DNA from: Acidobacteriota bacterium | GTDB lineage: Bacteria; Acidobacteriota; UBA4820; DSQY01 | NCBI GenBank assembly: GCA_021787565.1 | Contig: JAJYLT010000036.1 | Span: 1-34,750 of the forward strand | Length of the DNA: 34,750 nt | Direction: 5' to 3' | Shown here: piece by piece, positions 2,554 to 9,522 of the stretch | How positions within the stretch are numbered: position 1 is the stretch's first letter | Layout: each line of letters opens with the position of its first letter | The notes under the pieces: generated by a model | The model's input: only the letters and a program-made list of their open reading frames with translations | The model's database searches: none | What the model was told of the DNA's origin: nothing | Translations under genes and position numbers: made by a program

Positions 2554-4353
2554 TCAGCGGTCTATCTCCTTGATTCTCTTGCGCATGGCGATGGCCCTTG
2601 GATCTCTCAGGCTGAGTGCCTGAGCCTTGTCCAGGTACGCCCGGCACCTCGCGAACAGCCCGTTGTTCAAGTAAAATTCTGCCAGATCCAGAAGGTACTC
2701 GATATCCCGGGGATCCAGCTCTATGGCCCGCTGGAATTCACGCTCGGCCATGTGCTTGGCGCGGCTGTTGGTGTTCTTCTCGTAGATCTTCGCCATCAGG
2801 TAGTGGGCCTGGGGCGAAAAACCGTCGTGGAAGAGCGCCAGCCTCAGGTGCTGGGAGGCATCGTGCCACTGCTCCTGGGCCATGCAGTCGATGGCCCGTC
2901 GCAGGCTGAGCTGGGCCTCCTGCTGGCGGTTCTCCGAGGTCCGCCTGAGCGCCGTGCCGGCCTGGGCCACCGGATTCGGGCCTCCCTCCGCCTCGGCGCT
3001 CTCCGCCTTTGCCTCAGCCTTGCGGTCTTCGATGTAGCGGTTCTGAAGGAGGAGAAGGGACTCCCCCATCTTGGCGGTCAGAAAAAAGAGTTCCTTCTGG
3101 TGCCTCTTGAACACTTCCGGATGCAGATTGGCCGGGCTGAGTCGCTCCTTCAGCGCCTCGTGCGCCTTCACCGCATCGGCCGGCGCACTGCCCGGGGGCA
3201 CACCGAGGACCTTGTATGGGCTGATCCCGGGGACTCTGAACGCCTGGACCAGGTTCTGGATGGCCTCCGACTGCCGCTGGATCAGGGCGGTCTCCTCATC
3301 AAGGCGGACGGCCAGGCCGGACAGCCGGAACGGCGGCTCCACGGCTGGCTCGCTGGCAAGGAGGCCGAGCAGGAGGAGCAGGTACACCCCGCCCAGGAGC
3401 TGCCTCCCAGGCAGAATTCCCGTCTGGAGCAGATCGGACACCGCCACCGGCTGCTGGCACTGCTGCAACAGGTAGCCGTGATGGGGCTGGATGGGCAGAT
3501 CTTCGGGAAGCACCTCCTCCACCCTGCTGACCTTGACGCCCGGCCGCTTGAGCACGGCCAGCCCCTCCTCCGGGATCTGGTCGACCAGCTGCACCAGGAG
3601 GGCGGGGATCTCGATCGGCAGGAGTCCCTCCGGGATGACCACCGGCTCCGACCGGCAGCGCATGGGAGCATGCAAGGGCAGGGACGCGAGCAAGGAGAGG
3701 GTGGCCTGTTGTTTGATGGGCGCCAAGGGGACCGACCGAGCCAGCCCCTCCTCCAGCTCCGCCAGATAGAGCTGTAGGTCCTCCCCCTGTTCGCCGCACT
3801 CCATGCCGGCGCCCAGGAGGCCCGACCGGTAGCGCTCCCAGTAGAGTGGATGGACCAGCGTCCAGAGCCTTCCCTCACCGAACAGGAGGTGCAGTTCACC
3901 GTCCTGCGTTTGAACGGCGACCCTCCGGTGCGTGAAATCCACGAAGCCCTCACCCAACGCCTCGATCAGGCTCACGCGCGCCGGGCCCACTGCCGCCATG
4001 AGGCGGGCCAGGGCCCGCCGGCACGAGGACTCGTCCAGGGGCCGCGGCAGGAGGACGGCCACCCCCGCGTCCCGAACGCGGGACTCCAACTCTTCCCCCA
4101 CTCCGGCGGCCGCCACGATGGCCACGGGGGGAAGATCGGGGAAGTGGCCCCTGGCCGTCCTCACGAAGGACAGCCCGTCCCACTGGCCGGCCAGCGTCAT
4201 GTCGGCCACGATGGCCGTCGGCCTGCAGTCGGCCAGGAACTCCATGGCCTGTGCCACCGTACCCCTCTCCTGGAGGTCCCAGGCCCTGGGAAGGGCCACC
4301 CGGAGGACCTTGAGGAGGTCCGAATCGCGCGTGAGAACGAAAAGCGTGTTCAT
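2554..4353 (-). CDS. Receiver / J-like / TPR protein coupled to RuBisCO
   Basis: The product is 599 residues. Residues 1-122 look like a response-regulator receiver. D10 and D12 sit in the acidic pocket and D51 (VADMT) is the likely phosphoacceptor, but the conserved Lys of the last strand is Arg104 (LLPRPLD), so phosphorylation may be impaired. A middle region (about 125-370) resembles the DUF4388-like segments of Acidobacteria/Myxococcota regulators. Near residue 380, SPYKVLGVPPGS begins a J-domain-like fold lacking the HPD motif. The C-terminus (about 460-599) carries TPR repeats. The ATG overlaps the RuBisCO stop codon in an ATGA arrangement, which indicates translational coupling. There is no output DNA-binding domain, so a scaffold or regulatory interaction is more likely than transcription control. 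The link to RuBisCO is inferred from position only. Confidence 0.7.
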   Translation of the reverse strand: MNTLFVLTRDSDLLKVLRVALPRAWDLQERGTVAQAMEFLADCRPTAIVADMTLAGQWDGLSFVRTARGHFPDLPPVAIVAAAGVGEELESRVRDAGVAVLLPRPLDESSCRRALARLMAAVGPARVSLIEALGEGFVDFTHRRVAVQTQDGELHLLFGEGRLWTLVHPLYWERYRSGLLGAGMECGEQGEDLQLYLAELEEGLARSVPLAPIKQQATLSLLASLPLHAPMRCRSEPVVIPEGLLPIEIPALLVQLVDQIPEEGLAVLKRPGVKVSRVEEVLPEDLPIQPHHGYLLQQCQQPVAVSDLLQTGILPGRQLLGGVYLLLLLGLLASEPAVEPPFRLSGLAVRLDEETALIQRQSEAIQNLVQAFRVPGISPYKVLGVPPGSAPADAVKAHEALKERLSPANLHPEVFKRHQKELFFLTAKMGESLLLLQNRYIEDRKAEAKAESAEAEGGPNPVAQAGTALRRTSENRQQEAQLSLRRAIDCMAQEQWHDASQHLRLALFHDGFSPQAHYLMAKIYEKNTNSRAKHMAEREFQRAIELDPRDIEYLLDLAEFYLNNGLFARCRAYLDKAQALSLRDPRAIAMRKRIKEIDR

Positions 4354-5627
4354 CCTTGTGCTTTCCAGAAGGCAAGGGCCGTCCGGAGCTCGGGGGCCGA
4401 CGAGGAGGCGCGTTCGAGGGTCAGTCCGGCGAGAACCGCCTCCACGGCCTGGCGGACGGCCTTCGTCCCCGCCGCGCTCCCGCCGGGATGGCCGTGGATA
4501 CCGCCGCCGAACTGGAGGATCACCTCCGGCCCGAACAGGGACATCAGATCCGGAACGTGCCCTGGGTGCAGGCCGCCCGAGGCGATGGGCATGGCGGGCA
4601 GGACGCCGCGCCAGTCCTGCCCGTCGGCCATCGTCCCATCCTCGGAGGGCCAGGCCCTCAGGGCCCGCGCCGAGCGCAGCACCGCCTCCCGGCTGCCCTC
4701 CATTTTTCCCACCGCCGTTCCCACGTGAAGCTGGTCGATACCTACGAGGCGCGCCGAGCGCGCGATCACCTCCATGGCGATCCCGTGCTCGGGTACGCGC
4801 GTGAAGGCCGCGTGCATGGCCCTGTGCCCGTGAAGGATCAATCCCATGCCGGCCCCGCGGAGGCTCTGGACCCCCGACCAGCCGGCCGTCACCAGGTCGA
4901 CCATGGCGAAGCGGCCGCCGAGGTGGGCCACGAGCCCCGTCCTCCTCAGCATGACCTCCGTGGGGGCGGTGACGTTGGGGATGTAGCCCTTCGCGTTACC
5001 GGTGGCGTCTTCCGCCCGCTTGGCCGCATCGAGGCAGGCCCGGAGCCGCTCCTCGAAGGGACAGAAGCTCTGGGAGGTGAGGTTCTCGTCGTCCTTGACC
5101 ACGTCGCAGCCCGCCGACATGGCCTCGTAGACCACCTGGGCTTGGGCCTTGGGATCCAAGCCGATCTTCGGCTTCACGATGGTGCCGACGAGGGGGCGGC
5201 CGGTGACGCCCAGGACTTCCCGGATACCCTGGATGCCCCTGGCTGGGCCTTGAAAGGAGGCGGCCACGGTTTTCGGGAAGCGCACGGCCTCGAGGCGCAG
5301 CCTCCGTACCTCCTTTATTCCAAAGATGTTGCCCGCCACCGACGAGAAGACCTGGGCCATGTTGCCGCCCTCGAAGAGCACGGCTCCGTAAGCGATGACC
5401 ACACCCCGATCGTCCGCGGCGAGGACGCGCGCCCTCAGCCTCTCCCGCAGCTCTGGAGTGAGGGCCGCCACGTCGGTCCAGGTGCCGATGGAGGACTCGG
5501 CGGCCAGGGCATTGGCGGCCCTTTCCAGGGAGGTGCCCACCTCCGGCTCCACGCGGAACCGGCAGATCAGGTCGTCCTCCAGCGGCTCGCCGCCCAGCTC
5601 CAGGTAGGGAAGCGCTTCCCCGGCCAT
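4350..5627 (-). CDS. RuBisCO large subunit, form III type
   Basis: The product is 425 residues and closely resembles archaeal form III RuBisCO, which carboxylates ribulose-1,5-bisphosphate to two 3-phosphoglycerates. The active-site set is present. AESSIGTWT is at 43-51 and AGNIFG at 98-103. VKPKIG carries K152 and K154. K178 is the carbamylated Lys in KDDEN, with D180 and E181 as Mg ligands. HGHRAMHAAFTR spans 266-277, with H268 and R269. H301 and K308 (VGKMEG) follow, then S350-GG and GGGIHGHP. Thr after ESS is replaced by Ile. No small-subunit gene or phosphoribulokinase is in the window, so the substrate presumably comes from nucleotides. The start has GGAGGA 5 nt upstream and follows the isomerase stop by 10 nt. 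Form III is assigned from motif similarity; a tree would be needed to fix the clade. Confidence 0.92.
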   Translation of the reverse strand: MAGEALPYLELGGEPLEDDLICRFRVEPEVGTSLERAANALAAESSIGTWTDVAALTPELRERLRARVLAADDRGVVIAYGAVLFEGGNMAQVFSSVAGNIFGIKEVRRLRLEAVRFPKTVAASFQGPARGIQGIREVLGVTGRPLVGTIVKPKIGLDPKAQAQVVYEAMSAGCDVVKDDENLTSQSFCPFEERLRACLDAAKRAEDATGNAKGYIPNVTAPTEVMLRRTGLVAHLGGRFAMVDLVTAGWSGVQSLRGAGMGLILHGHRAMHAAFTRVPEHGIAMEVIARSARLVGIDQLHVGTAVGKMEGSREAVLRSARALRAWPSEDGTMADGQDWRGVLPAMPIASGGLHPGHVPDLMSLFGPEVILQFGGGIHGHPGGSAAGTKAVRQAVEAVLAGLTLERASSSAPELRTALAFWKAQG

Positions 5628-5637
5628 CGCCGTCCTC

Positions 5638-6282
5638 CTACAAACGCCCTCGCGCGGGGGGCGCGGGCGGGCAGAGGGTCAGGACATCCTTCACGAGCCC
5701 CCTTTCGGTAATGAAGGCCGTCACGTACTTGAGGTGCACCTTGTCGAAGGCCGGGTTCAGGACCAGGACCCCGGCCGGCGCGTCGGGCCAAACCTCCGCC
5801 GGGTCCCGCTGCTCCACGGCCTCGTCGATGTGGTCCCGCACCACCTTGAGCGTGAGGGTGGCGCAGTAGGTGGGCACGTCGTACCGGCTCGCCACCACGC
5901 AGAAGATGCCCGTGCCCACCTTGTTGATGAGGTATCCCGATGGAAGCACGGCGTCGGCGCCGAAGAGGAACAGGTCCGCTCCGACGCGGGCCAGGGCCTC
6001 CTCGTCCCGGCGGACTTGCTCCAGCAACGCTCCGGCCCGCTCCCCCGGCTCCCCTGAGACATCCTCCTCTTCCACACTAGACAGGAAGAGCTCGAGGAGA
6101 TTTCTCAGCATGGGCTCGTTGGGGCGGGCCCCGGCGAGCAGTTCGGCCAGGGCGCGGCGGTCCGCGCGAGGCTCCACCGCCAGCTCCCCCGCCAGGGCCT
6201 CGACCGCCGCCTTGGCGATGGCGTTGGCGCCCTGGATCTCCAGGCTCCGAATGCGCGCGGCGGTAGTCTCCACGAGCCCCAC
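5638..6282 (-). CDS. Ribose-1,5-bisphosphate isomerase-like protein, internally shortened
   Basis: The 214-residue product belongs to the eIF2B/aIF2B family. The N-terminal helical part fits R15P isomerase (EIQGANAIAKAAVEAL at 15-30, RPNEPMLRNLL at 53-63). The C-terminal Rossmann part fits as well (FGADAVL at 107-113, INKVGT at 119-124, NPAFD at 176-180, ITERG at 191-195). Known family members are about 320 residues. The block that carries the catalytic Cys (the MTHCHS-type motif) is absent, because A98-R-V100 runs directly into G101-AD. The reading frame is intact, so this is a clean in-frame loss of roughly 80 residues. The start is GTG with GGGAGG about 8 nt upstream, 12 nt after the AMP-phosphorylase stop. 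It could be inactive, have a different activity, or be an assembly artefact. Confidence 0.75.
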   Translation of the reverse strand: MGLVETTAARIRSLEIQGANAIAKAAVEALAGELAVEPRADRRALAELLAGARPNEPMLRNLLELFLSSVEEEDVSGEPGERAGALLEQVRRDEEALARVGADLFLFGADAVLPSGYLINKVGTGIFCVVASRYDVPTYCATLTLKVVRDHIDEAVEQRDPAEVWPDAPAGVLVLNPAFDKVHLKYVTAFITERGLVKDVLTLCPPAPPARGRL

Positions 6283-6294
6283 GGGCGGTCCTCC

Positions 6295-7206
6295 CTACTG
6301 GATGACGATCATTTCCGGGTGCCGCTGCCAGTAATCCCATGCGAAGTGGGTGGATCCGGCGGCCTTCTTCTTGGAGAGGATGGAGGCGATCATCTGCCCC
6401 GGCGCGTCCATGTTCAGGGGACGCTCCACTCCGATAATGATGTCGTCGGCCGGGGAGAGGGCGAAGGAGCCGCCCCACGCGAGGCAGCCGTTCTCCCGTT
6501 CCACGATGGCCTTCAGGCGCTCCAGGCTCAGGGAGACCTCAGCCAGGGCCTCCATGGTATCCGCCGTGCCGGAGGGCGAGGTGATGGCCCTGGAGGAGGT
6601 TTTGGGAATCGTGAGCCCGTAGGCGGCCACGATGGGCACCACCACCATGGTCGTCCGGTTGCCCGGGACGCCGCCGATGCAGTGCTTGTCCACCACCATG
6701 TCGCGGCCCCACGCCAAGCTCTCTCCGGTGCCGGCCATGGCCTCGGCGAGGTAGACGATCTCGTCCCGATCCATGGCCCCCTGCGCGGTGGAGACCACGA
6801 AGGCCGTCAGCTCGACCTTGGAGTAGCGGTTCGAGACGATGTCCTGGACGATGTACCGGTAATCCTCCCGCCCGAGCACCTCCCCGCGGATCTTCTTGCG
6901 GATGAGCTCCACCGAGCGGACGGGGTCGGGATGGCGCACGTTCACCTCCGTGCCCTCGGGGAGGCCGAGCTTCTGGTAGGCGTACTCGCACAGGCCGATC
7001 TGGTCGGAGTCCAGGAAGGGCTCGTCCACCACGTCCAGGACCCCCACGATGCCGCGGCCGTTCGCCATGACCTCCACCTTCGAGAGGGCGCCGAACCCTT
7101 GCGCGCGGCAGAGGTCGCAGTCCCTCCGCAAGTAGAGGATGTATTCGCGGTACGTGTCGATCTTCAGCCTCTTGATGCGCAACTTCGTTTCCCCTGGTCC
7201 CGGCAT
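6295..7206 (-). CDS. deoA: AMP phosphorylase-like protein lacking the C-terminal domain
   Basis: The product resembles archaeal AMP phosphorylase, which releases adenine and forms ribose-1,5-bisphosphate. It carries the N-terminal archaeal-type extension (LRIKRLKIDTYREY), the helical domain (REDYRYIVQDIVSNRYSKVE), the phosphate-binding loop DKHCIGGVPGNRTT and the TSSRAITSPSGTADTMEAL block. Archaeal enzymes are about 500 residues. This one stops about 300 residues in, right after SKKKAAGSTH, and ends with a short unrelated tail (FAWDYWQRHPEMIVIQ). The next gene starts 12 nt later, so there is no room for the missing domain. Start choices are ATG 7206, which has no clear ribosome site, or TTG 7182, which has AGGGG 8 nt upstream; the TTG is quite plausible. 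The gene symbol is for the family; activity is unproven. Confidence 0.75.
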   Translation of the reverse strand: MPGPGETKLRIKRLKIDTYREYILYLRRDCDLCRAQGFGALSKVEVMANGRGIVGVLDVVDEPFLDSDQIGLCEYAYQKLGLPEGTEVNVRHPDPVRSVELIRKKIRGEVLGREDYRYIVQDIVSNRYSKVELTAFVVSTAQGAMDRDEIVYLAEAMAGTGESLAWGRDMVVDKHCIGGVPGNRTTMVVVPIVAAYGLTIPKTSSRAITSPSGTADTMEALAEVSLSLERLKAIVERENGCLAWGGSFALSPADDIIIGVERPLNMDAPGQMIASILSKKKAAGSTHFAWDYWQRHPEMIVIQ

Positions 7207-7234: not shown

Positions 7235-7323
7235 CACAAGCCGCCCCGCCCGTGCGGCTGGCTCCGGTTGGAAATCGTACGGCACGAGACGATCACCCCC
7301 TCGCCCGATGGTCCAAACCCCTC

Positions 7324-7391
7324 ATCGCCTAATCGCCTAATCGCTTAATCGCTCAATCGCTCAATCGCCTAATCGCTAAGTCGCCTCTCGC
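7324..7391. repeat. Tandem 8-bp repeat array (ATCGCCTA)
   Basis: Seven near-perfect copies of ATCGCYYA run from 7324 to 7379, followed by one or two decayed copies reaching the RNase R stop codon at 7393-7395. A short related piece in reverse orientation lies at about 17984-18003. No coding frame is preserved. Confidence 0.9.
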
Positions 7392-7392
7392 C

Positions 7393-9522
7393 TCACCGCC
7401 TGCCCCCCGTTTTCTTCTTCCTCCGGCCTCCCCCTTCCGCGGGCCATCCCTCCAGCAGAAAATGGGCCTCACCCATGAGCCTATCCACCCTCATGAGCCG
7501 CACCAAGACCTCATCGCCCACCGTCAGAACCGCGCCGGAGTAGCGCCCCCTCGCCGAGAGGCCGTCCCCGTCCACGGTGATGAAGTCTCCCTCCACCGCG
7601 TTGAAGGGACAGATGCCTTCGATCAGGTGCTCCACCAGCTCCACCCGCGCGCCGAAGCGCGTGAATCCCAGCACCACCGCATCGAAGGTCTCCCCCAGGC
7701 GGTCCGCGAGGAAGGCCATCTGAAACCAGGCCACCACCTCCCGCTCGGCCTGGTCCGAGGCCCGTTCGGTGGCTGAGCAGTGGACCGCGAGGGCCTCCAG
7801 GTCCGCCCCCGGCGCCGGAGAGCCCCAGAGCGCCCCGGCCAGGTTCCGGTGCACCAGCAGGTCGGGGTATCGGCGGATGGGGGAGGTGAAGTGGCAGTAG
7901 TGGGCGAAGCCCAGGCCGAAGTGGGGCAGCACCGCCGCGTGATACCGCGCCTGGGCCATGGCCCGCAGGATCAGGTAGGCCACCAGCTTGGCCGCCCTGT
8001 GACCCTCGGACTTGGCGAGCACCCGCTGCAGCGTGAAGGGATCGGAGAGGTCCCCCCGGCTCGCCTCTCCCAGCCCGAGCGTGTTCAGGAGGGGCCGGAG
8101 GGCCTCCAGCTTCTCCGCGTTGGGCTCGTCGTGGACCCTGAAGAGGATGGCGGTCCTCAGGCGCAGGCACTCGGCCGCGACGGCGCGGTTGCAGGCGAGC
8201 ATGGCCTCCTCCACGATGCGGTGGGAGGCGAGCCGCATCGACGGGAGCACCTCCTCCACGCGCCCGGAGAGGCCGAATCGAAGACCCGCCTCCGGCAGGT
8301 CCAGGTCCAGGGTGCCCAAGGCCAGGCGCCGCTGGAAGAGCCTGCGGGATATCTCAAGCGCCGCTTCCAACAGGCTCGCCACCTCGGGTGGGGCGCTCTC
8401 CCGCCCCTCCAGGACGGCCTGGGCCTGTTCGTAGGAGAGCCTCGCCGAGGAATGGATGACCCCCCGGTGGAACCGCGCCAAACGCACGCGGCCGTCATCG
8501 TCCAGCTCCAGCTCCGCCGTGAGAGTCAGGCGATCCCGCCGCGGCTTCAGGGAGCAGAGGCCGCTCGAAAGGGCGTGGGGTAGCATGGGATAGACCGTTC
8601 CGGGCAGGTAGGTGCTGTTCCCCCGGCGGCGGGCCTCGGCATCGAGGGCGGAATCCGGCTTGACGTAGTGGGCCACGTCGGCGATGTGGACCCACAGCCG
8701 CCAGCCGCCGCTCTCTTTCCGCACGGAGATGGCGTCGTCGAAATCCTTCGCGTCCTCGGGATCGATGGTGACCGTGGGAAGGGAGCGGAAGTCCTTCCGT
8801 TCCTGAAGATCCGACGGATCGGGATCCTCCGGCAGGATCGCGGCCTCCCGCTCGGCCGCCTCGGGGAAGGTTTGGGTCAGGCCGTAGCGCGTCTCCGCCG
8901 CCAGGACGGGCGTGCGGGGATCATCCAGCGGCCCCAGGACGCGAAGACCCACGGAGAGGGCCGCGCCACCGGACTCCAGCTCCACGCTCGCCACCATGCC
9001 TTCCGCGCCGGTGCCACGGGGAAGCGCGATGGGTGCCCGCGAGCTGCCCATGGGCAGGAGAAGGCCGCCCTGGACGATGCCGACGACCGGCCGGGCGCTC
9101 CTCTCCACGACCTCCAGGACCCTGGCCTCTGGCCTGACGCCGACCTCCCGGCCATGGGCGCCGCGCCCGCCTCTCGGCCGTCCTGGCACTTCCTGGGCCA
9201 GCACGCGGTCCCCCTCCAGGGCGCCGCCCGTTTCCCTGGCCGGTACGAAGAGGTCGCCCTCGGCCCTGGAGTGGTCGGGGGTGATGAAGCCGAAGCCTCC
9301 TCTGGCCGCGTGGAAGAGACCGGTGAAGGTGCCCCGGGCTCCCGCCAAGCGGTATCTCCGGTGCACCCACTCCACCAGGCCTTCCCTCTGAAAGGCCTCC
9401 AGCACGCCTTCCAGGGCCTTGCGCTCGCGCGGCGAAAGGCCCAGCCCCGCCGCCACCTGGCTCCTGGTGCAGGGCTGTGGAGCCTCCGCCAGGAAATCGC
9501 GCACCCTCTCGCGCAGGGTCAA
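7393..9522 (-). CDS. rnr: Ribonuclease R
   Basis: The product is 709 residues, a processive 3'-5' exoribonuclease of the RNB family that degrades structured RNA. Residues 1-60 form a winged-helix domain. The first cold-shock domain begins at GTFTGLFHAARGGFGFI (about 64-80). The RNB catalytic core contains FRSLPTVTIDPEDAKDFDDA, with metal-binding D254, D260, D262 and D263. HYCHFTSPIRRYPDLLVHR is the conserved late RNB motif. A C-terminal S1 domain ends in a Lys/Arg-rich tail (GGGRRKKKTGGRR). The start is TTG at 9522. AAGGAG lies 6 nt upstream and the TTG overlaps the stop codon of the PHP gene (TTGA), so the two are translationally coupled. An in-frame upstream ATG at 9720 would lie deep inside the PHP gene. 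Confidence 0.93.
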   Translation of the reverse strand: MTLRERVRDFLAEAPQPCTRSQVAAGLGLSPRERKALEGVLEAFQREGLVEWVHRRYRLAGARGTFTGLFHAARGGFGFITPDHSRAEGDLFVPARETGGALEGDRVLAQEVPGRPRGGRGAHGREVGVRPEARVLEVVERSARPVVGIVQGGLLLPMGSSRAPIALPRGTGAEGMVASVELESGGAALSVGLRVLGPLDDPRTPVLAAETRYGLTQTFPEAAEREAAILPEDPDPSDLQERKDFRSLPTVTIDPEDAKDFDDAISVRKESGGWRLWVHIADVAHYVKPDSALDAEARRRGNSTYLPGTVYPMLPHALSSGLCSLKPRRDRLTLTAELELDDDGRVRLARFHRGVIHSSARLSYEQAQAVLEGRESAPPEVASLLEAALEISRRLFQRRLALGTLDLDLPEAGLRFGLSGRVEEVLPSMRLASHRIVEEAMLACNRAVAAECLRLRTAILFRVHDEPNAEKLEALRPLLNTLGLGEASRGDLSDPFTLQRVLAKSEGHRAAKLVAYLILRAMAQARYHAAVLPHFGLGFAHYCHFTSPIRRYPDLLVHRNLAGALWGSPAPGADLEALAVHCSATERASDQAEREVVAWFQMAFLADRLGETFDAVVLGFTRFGARVELVEHLIEGICPFNAVEGDFITVDGDGLSARGRYSGAVLTVGDEVLVRLMRVDRLMGEAHFLLEGWPAEGGGRRKKKTGGRR

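Follow-up and report, generated by a model that had tools for sequence, protein, structure and literature searches.

In one Acidobacteriota genome, the gene for a ribose-1,5-bisphosphate (R15P) isomerase-like protein and the AMP phosphorylase-like gene that precedes it have each lost an internal block of codons in frame, beside an intact gene for a form III RuBisCO large subunit. We consider a recent, real loss of function by deletion in the lineage of this genome (G000) the best explanation, with a probability of roughly 60%. A sister species carries both genes whole, and the lesions therefore point to a gene freshly lost, or to a fault of the assembly, rather than to a new kind of enzyme. 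Whichever of the two holds, such lesions are of an ordinary sort, and they are not evidence for a cysteine-free isomerase.

The locus lies in a window of 34,750 nucleotides, the whole stretch of DNA that was analysed (Table 1). The genome comprises 3.47 Mb in 77 contigs and is 98.27% complete, and its group of Acidobacteriota stands near 'Candidatus Aminicenantes' MAGs. The main comparison was with a sister genome of the same genus (G001; JAJYCJ01, isolate BP9.bin43), complemented by relatives sampled at one genome per species.

Table 1. Genes and deletion joints of the RuBisCO locus in the window
Feature	Position	Strand	Details
Downstream gene overlapping the RuBisCO end	2554..4353	(-)	599 aa, intact; stays beside RuBisCO in relatives
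Intact form III RuBisCO large subunit	4350..5627	(-)	425 aa
Truncated R15P-isomerase-like gene	5638..6282	(-)	214 aa, GTG start; sister 288 aa
222-bp (74-codon) deletion joint	5970..5971	(-)	between codons L104 and F105 (DNA alignment)
Truncated AMP phosphorylase-like gene	6295..7182	(-)	TTG start, 295 aa; sister 493 aa
594-bp (198-codon) deletion joint	6345..6346	(-)	DNA alignment to sister
Upstream RNase R-like gene	7393..9522	(-)	intact; named from sequence

The isomerase-like gene

In profile searches, residues 103-198 of the 214-aa open reading frame matched TIGR00511 (1.2e-20) and Pfam IF-2B (5e-20), and its N-terminus matched the R15P isomerase and IF-2B models weakly, in agreement with the first-pass annotation, which had assigned both ends of the protein to R15P isomerase. 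The truncated protein scores 74 bits with TIGR00511, against a cut-off of 314.1 bits. Full-length isomerases from the three Acidobacteriota relatives tested reach 189-196 bits against the same cut-off (314 bits), and the clade itself therefore falls under it. Because the clade has diverged from the archaeal R15P isomerases, the name follows from similarity and gene order, in the sister as well.

Nucleotide alignment with the sister shows that the gap is in frame and measures exactly 222 bp (74 codons); the first-pass annotation had recognized the in-frame loss and overestimated its size at about 80 residues. The joint sits between two alike stretches, GGCGCGGACCTG and GGGGCCGACCTC (9/12 alike), so that GADL is encoded at either end of the block. 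For this reason the gap appears at V100|G101 in protein aligners, as originally annotated, and at L104|F105 in the DNA, and the former is an equivalent protein placement. The 60 bp on each side of this joint, and of the joint in the phosphorylase gene described below, are 92-98% identical to the sister, with no extra bases at either joint. A close relative thus has the full-length gene within near-identical flanks, a finding that the annotation itself had named as contrary to its reading.

Half of the C-terminal sheet lay in the lost block, as did the TETRP..QGR loop and the THCHS motif with the catalytic cysteine. The absence of the cysteine motif (THC(H/N)S) from the 214-aa protein was correctly annotated: it lies within the deleted 222 bp, and its cysteine aligns with the catalytic Cys135 of Pyrococcus horikoshii R15P isomerase, of which the replacement by serine abolishes activity (PMC5789824). 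Alignment with this characterized enzyme (PH0208), as the annotation had proposed, also places the positions of the phosphate-site residues Ser137 and Gln166 (PMC5789824) in the deleted block, such that the serine of the 5-phosphate site and the glutamine of the 1-phosphate site are both lost. The aspartate of the GAD motif is retained, as annotated (D110, invariant in the alignment of relatives), together with the sugar-site asparagine and lysine. The GAD aspartate by itself would not be expected to make an enzyme.

In the AlphaFold model of the truncated protein, confidence is high for the N-terminal helical domain and low for what remains of the catalytic domain. In the full-length control, the deleted block corresponds to three predicted strand-helix units; the region beyond it was also poorly predicted, and the shallow alignments limit what a comparison of the two forms shows for the C-terminal part. 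These predicted structures only illustrate which part of the isomerase was lost.

The first-pass annotation had suggested a search for the same gap in orthologues, and it was found in none: in 10 of 10 relatives with a readable gene the isomerase is full length (276-288 aa), with FTHCHSS, TETRP and QGR invariant. This rules out an ancestral origin of the loss, and likewise a new architecture of the family. The deleted DNA has no other location in G000, and a displaced segment or a second intact copy is ruled out. Another IF-2B-family match in this genome, a 437-aa open frame on contig C22 with 33% identity over the C-terminal third, may be of the MtnA type, which is a guess on our part.

The AMP phosphorylase gene and the RuBisCO cluster

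The AMP phosphorylase gene upstream of the isomerase gene carries a second clean in-frame loss, of exactly 594 bp (198 codons), which is absent from the first-pass annotation. Only one base is shared at the joint. The start codon is TTG in G000 and ATG in the sister. The truncated protein reaches 302 bits against the 535-bit cut-off of TIGR03327 and covers profile positions 2-280 of 500; the full-length sister protein scores 499.6 bits against this same AMP_phos cut-off. No second phosphorylase match is present in G000, and the gene is full length in the relatives wherever the locus is available. In genome G011 (L039 / L092), the frame matched to AMP phosphorylase contains one in-frame TAG, possibly within an upstream extension. 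At 7300-7400, in the interval from the RNase R-like gene to the AMP phosphorylase gene, we observed repeats of the GCGATTA/GCGATTG type that differ in copy number from the sister.

The RuBisCO protein scores 500.0 bits with TIGR03326, above the form III equivalog cut-off of 497.45, and covers all of the profile (positions 2-426 of 426). The phosphorylase, isomerase and RuBisCO genes are separated by gaps of 10-12 bp. Because both deletions are in frame, the open reading frames and the tight operon can still be read, with RuBisCO and the gene after it intact. A phosphoribulokinase was searched for with PF00485, without a match in G000, G001, G004 or G009; the same search gave hits in 11 of 14 control genomes. 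A supply of RuBP from phosphoribulokinase is thereby ruled out in these four genomes. With this enzyme missing and the feeder genes broken, the RuBisCO of G000 has no recognizable source of RuBP.

Internal deletions across the genome

To place these lesions in context, G000 and G001 were compared over ~525 kb of aligned sequence (93.4% identity), in which a deletion was counted as internal when it was clean, at least 60 bp long and wholly within a gene called in G001 by a simple codon-usage caller. Ten such deletions were present in G000 and none in G001. They affect the genes for R15P isomerase, AMP phosphorylase, YjbQ/UPF0047, CorA, YitT, 6PGDH, an HD/GGDEF pair, a short ORF and DUF502, and such gaps are thus not specific to the pathway of the isomerase. 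The frame is preserved in nine of ten (binomial p 3.6e-4), the DUF502 case being the sole frameshift; counted by locus, the share is about 6/7 and the result weaker (p about 0.007). Among single-copy deletions of G000 that cross gene ends or are intergenic, 3/9 are in frame. Several apparent intergenic deletions in G000 turned out to be insertions of multi-copy elements in G001, some with inverted ends, and were set aside. A family of short elements in multiple copies, whose ends are near CCCAAATCCCGCGATTG (L234:2633 onward; L246:2610-2936; G001 C130 and C95), occupies intergenic insertion sites that differ between the two sister genomes.

Homology at the breakpoints is 0-5 bp and near-random. 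End-joining is ruled out as the mechanism, as no Ku gene was found. At the observed homologies an in-phase share of 0.30-0.56 is expected, and the short repeats of GC-rich coding DNA, which tend to codon phase, explain part of the in-frame excess. They are ruled out as its whole cause, since nine of ten is too many once this bias is allowed for (p 7e-4). Each of the nine in-frame joints would fit a cut between codons (about p 0.02), which selection leaves unexplained. Neither does polarity explain the frame of the CorA, YitT and GGDEF cases, because these genes are convergent with no co-directional gene behind them.

Three of the affected loci are described here. In YjbQ/UPF0047 (L191:10245; G000 C16), an in-frame deletion of 82 codons spares the final six codons and the stop, and the next co-directional gene adjoins. 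The neighbouring HD-domain and GGDEF genes (L219:15034-15830; G000 C6, about 55 kb) carry three in-frame deletions of 267, 1770 and 180 bp, two of them internal and one fusing the remnants, so that neither the GGDEF motif nor the HD domain is left. For 6PGDH (L237:2521-3426 in the sister; C6:123169-123339 in G000), 57 of 302 residues are left, also in frame; a second 6PGDH homologue is located on C2. The first-pass annotation had taken the clean frame of the isomerase gene as an argument against decay, and with the in-frame 6PGDH remnant this argument fails.

Selection on the remnants

The substitution ratio is 0.09 in the AMP phosphorylase remnant and 0.06 in the YjbQ remnant, compared with 0.16 in controls; neither remnant is relaxed. 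For the isomerase remnant the substitution ratio is slightly high; its C-terminal part has a dN/dS of 0.10 relative to the sister. The 6PGDH remnant is relaxed, with 10 non-synonymous and 2 synonymous changes in 57 codons. On the G000 branch, the phosphorylase remnant accumulated 3 non-synonymous versus 13 synonymous changes, from which we estimate that it has drifted freely for at most roughly a seventh of the branch. Small indels and polarized substitutions are balanced between the two genomes. A pooled ratio was left out, because multiple deletions had put two GGDEF/HD rows out of alignment.

Gene loss, assembly fault or altered protein

Under a recent loss of function, once the sister species had split off, a clean 222-bp deletion would have removed the 74 codons, and with them the catalytic cysteine and half of the catalytic domain, and a separate clean deletion of 594 bp would have disabled the phosphorylase gene just upstream. 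These deletions would be present in the cells, beyond the assembly. The truncated isomerase would probably be unable to convert R15P to RuBP, and the NMP-to-RuBP branch would therefore be off in the G000 lineage, leaving RuBisCO without a recognizable substrate supply. The reading frame may have been kept since this was tolerated or favoured by avoiding polar effects, which would fit the operonic and not the convergent cases.

It is distinctly less probable, yet a possibility to be taken seriously, that the deletions are faults of a single assembly or later processing step, and that in the organism both the R15P isomerase and the AMP phosphorylase are full length and the pathway works. The distribution of internal deletions over the two genomes (10 against 0) argues for such a fault, as do the balance of indels and polarized substitutions, the lack of clear decay in most remnants, and breakpoint homologies that are near-random where Ku is lacking; the fit of the joints to codon boundaries is what protein-aware processing could give. 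Against it stands the confinement of the in-frame excess to genes (9/10 inside, 3/9 elsewhere), which a frame-blind assembly fault would not give. Moreover, k-mer assemblers are not misled by short repeats of 0-5 bp. Finally, the 6PGDH remnant has decayed, and its sequence, with the second 6PGDH copy, would be as expected for a real, older pseudogene.

Besides a segment lost in assembly, the first-pass annotation offered two forms of an altered protein, and both of these have lost most of their support with the full-length relatives, the broken AMP phosphorylase and the like deletions in unrelated genes. It is improbable that the short isomerase persists in a binding or structural role, for instance as a subunit of RuBisCO or of some leftover complex: its frame, start and operon spacing are intact, its C-terminal part is conserved and the N-terminal helical domain is confidently predicted, but half of the catalytic sheet is gone, its neighbour is broken as well, genes unrelated to it show similar deletions, and the deletion is too recent to show selection on the short form. 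Very unlikely, too, is a deletion process that removes codon blocks in frame across the genome, with the short proteins kept and RuBisCO fed by an unrecognized source of RuBP. The probability of R15P isomerization by a Cys-free mechanism is close to negligible. The GAD aspartate and the sugar-site asparagine and lysine would be available for it, but the cysteine, serine and glutamine sites are gone along with three strand-helix units, the cysteine is present in every relative, and the Cys135Ser enzyme of P. horikoshii is inactive (PMC5789824).

A real loss of function in G000 would mean that a bacterial NMP-to-RuBisCO pathway has been switched off in one species and kept by its sister, with RuBisCO intact, providing a natural test of the usefulness of form III RuBisCO without AMP phosphorylase and R15P isomerase. 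If the deletions are an artefact, neither the G000 genome nor functional claims based on its gene lengths could be trusted, with some 60 genes possibly affected (extrapolated from the sampled 15%). Two features deserve attention: the paired isomerase and phosphorylase lesions beside an intact RuBisCO, and the excess, across the genome, of in-frame deletions within genes.

Comparison with known systems

The NMP pathway with form III RuBisCO has been described for archaea, and both feeder enzymes are missing in WOR-3 (PMC12542636). We found no paper on this pathway in the present group of Acidobacteriota. As in the Thermococcus kodakarensis type of pathway, the three genes adjoin and RuBisCO scores above the form III cut-off; in contrast to it, G000 alone has two of the three enzymes broken.

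The isomerase-like protein resembles the characterized R15P isomerases (TIGR00511; T. kodakarensis, and P. horikoshii PH0208; PDB 5YFJ series, 3A11/3VM6) in that the N-terminal helical domain and the C-terminal third align, the GAD aspartate and the sugar-site asparagine and lysine are present, and the gene lies with AMP phosphorylase-like and form III RuBisCO genes. It differs in lacking 74 residues, including the catalytic cysteine, the serine of the 5-phosphate site and the glutamine of the 1-phosphate site. In addition, the archaeal IRGA motif, of which Arg22 binds the 1-phosphate, reads IQGA in the whole Acidobacteriota clade. Compared with AMP phosphorylase and archaeal-type thymidine phosphorylase (TIGR03327, TIGR02645, PRK04350; PDB 4GA4-6), the G000 protein matches strongly up to profile position ~280 and lacks 198 residues of the alpha/beta and C-terminal region.

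Both genes resemble bacterial pseudogenes formed by internal deletion, with clean deletions, intact relatives and no second copy. They depart from these in the unusually high share of in-frame deletions (9/10) and in the clustering of such deletions in one of two sister genomes.
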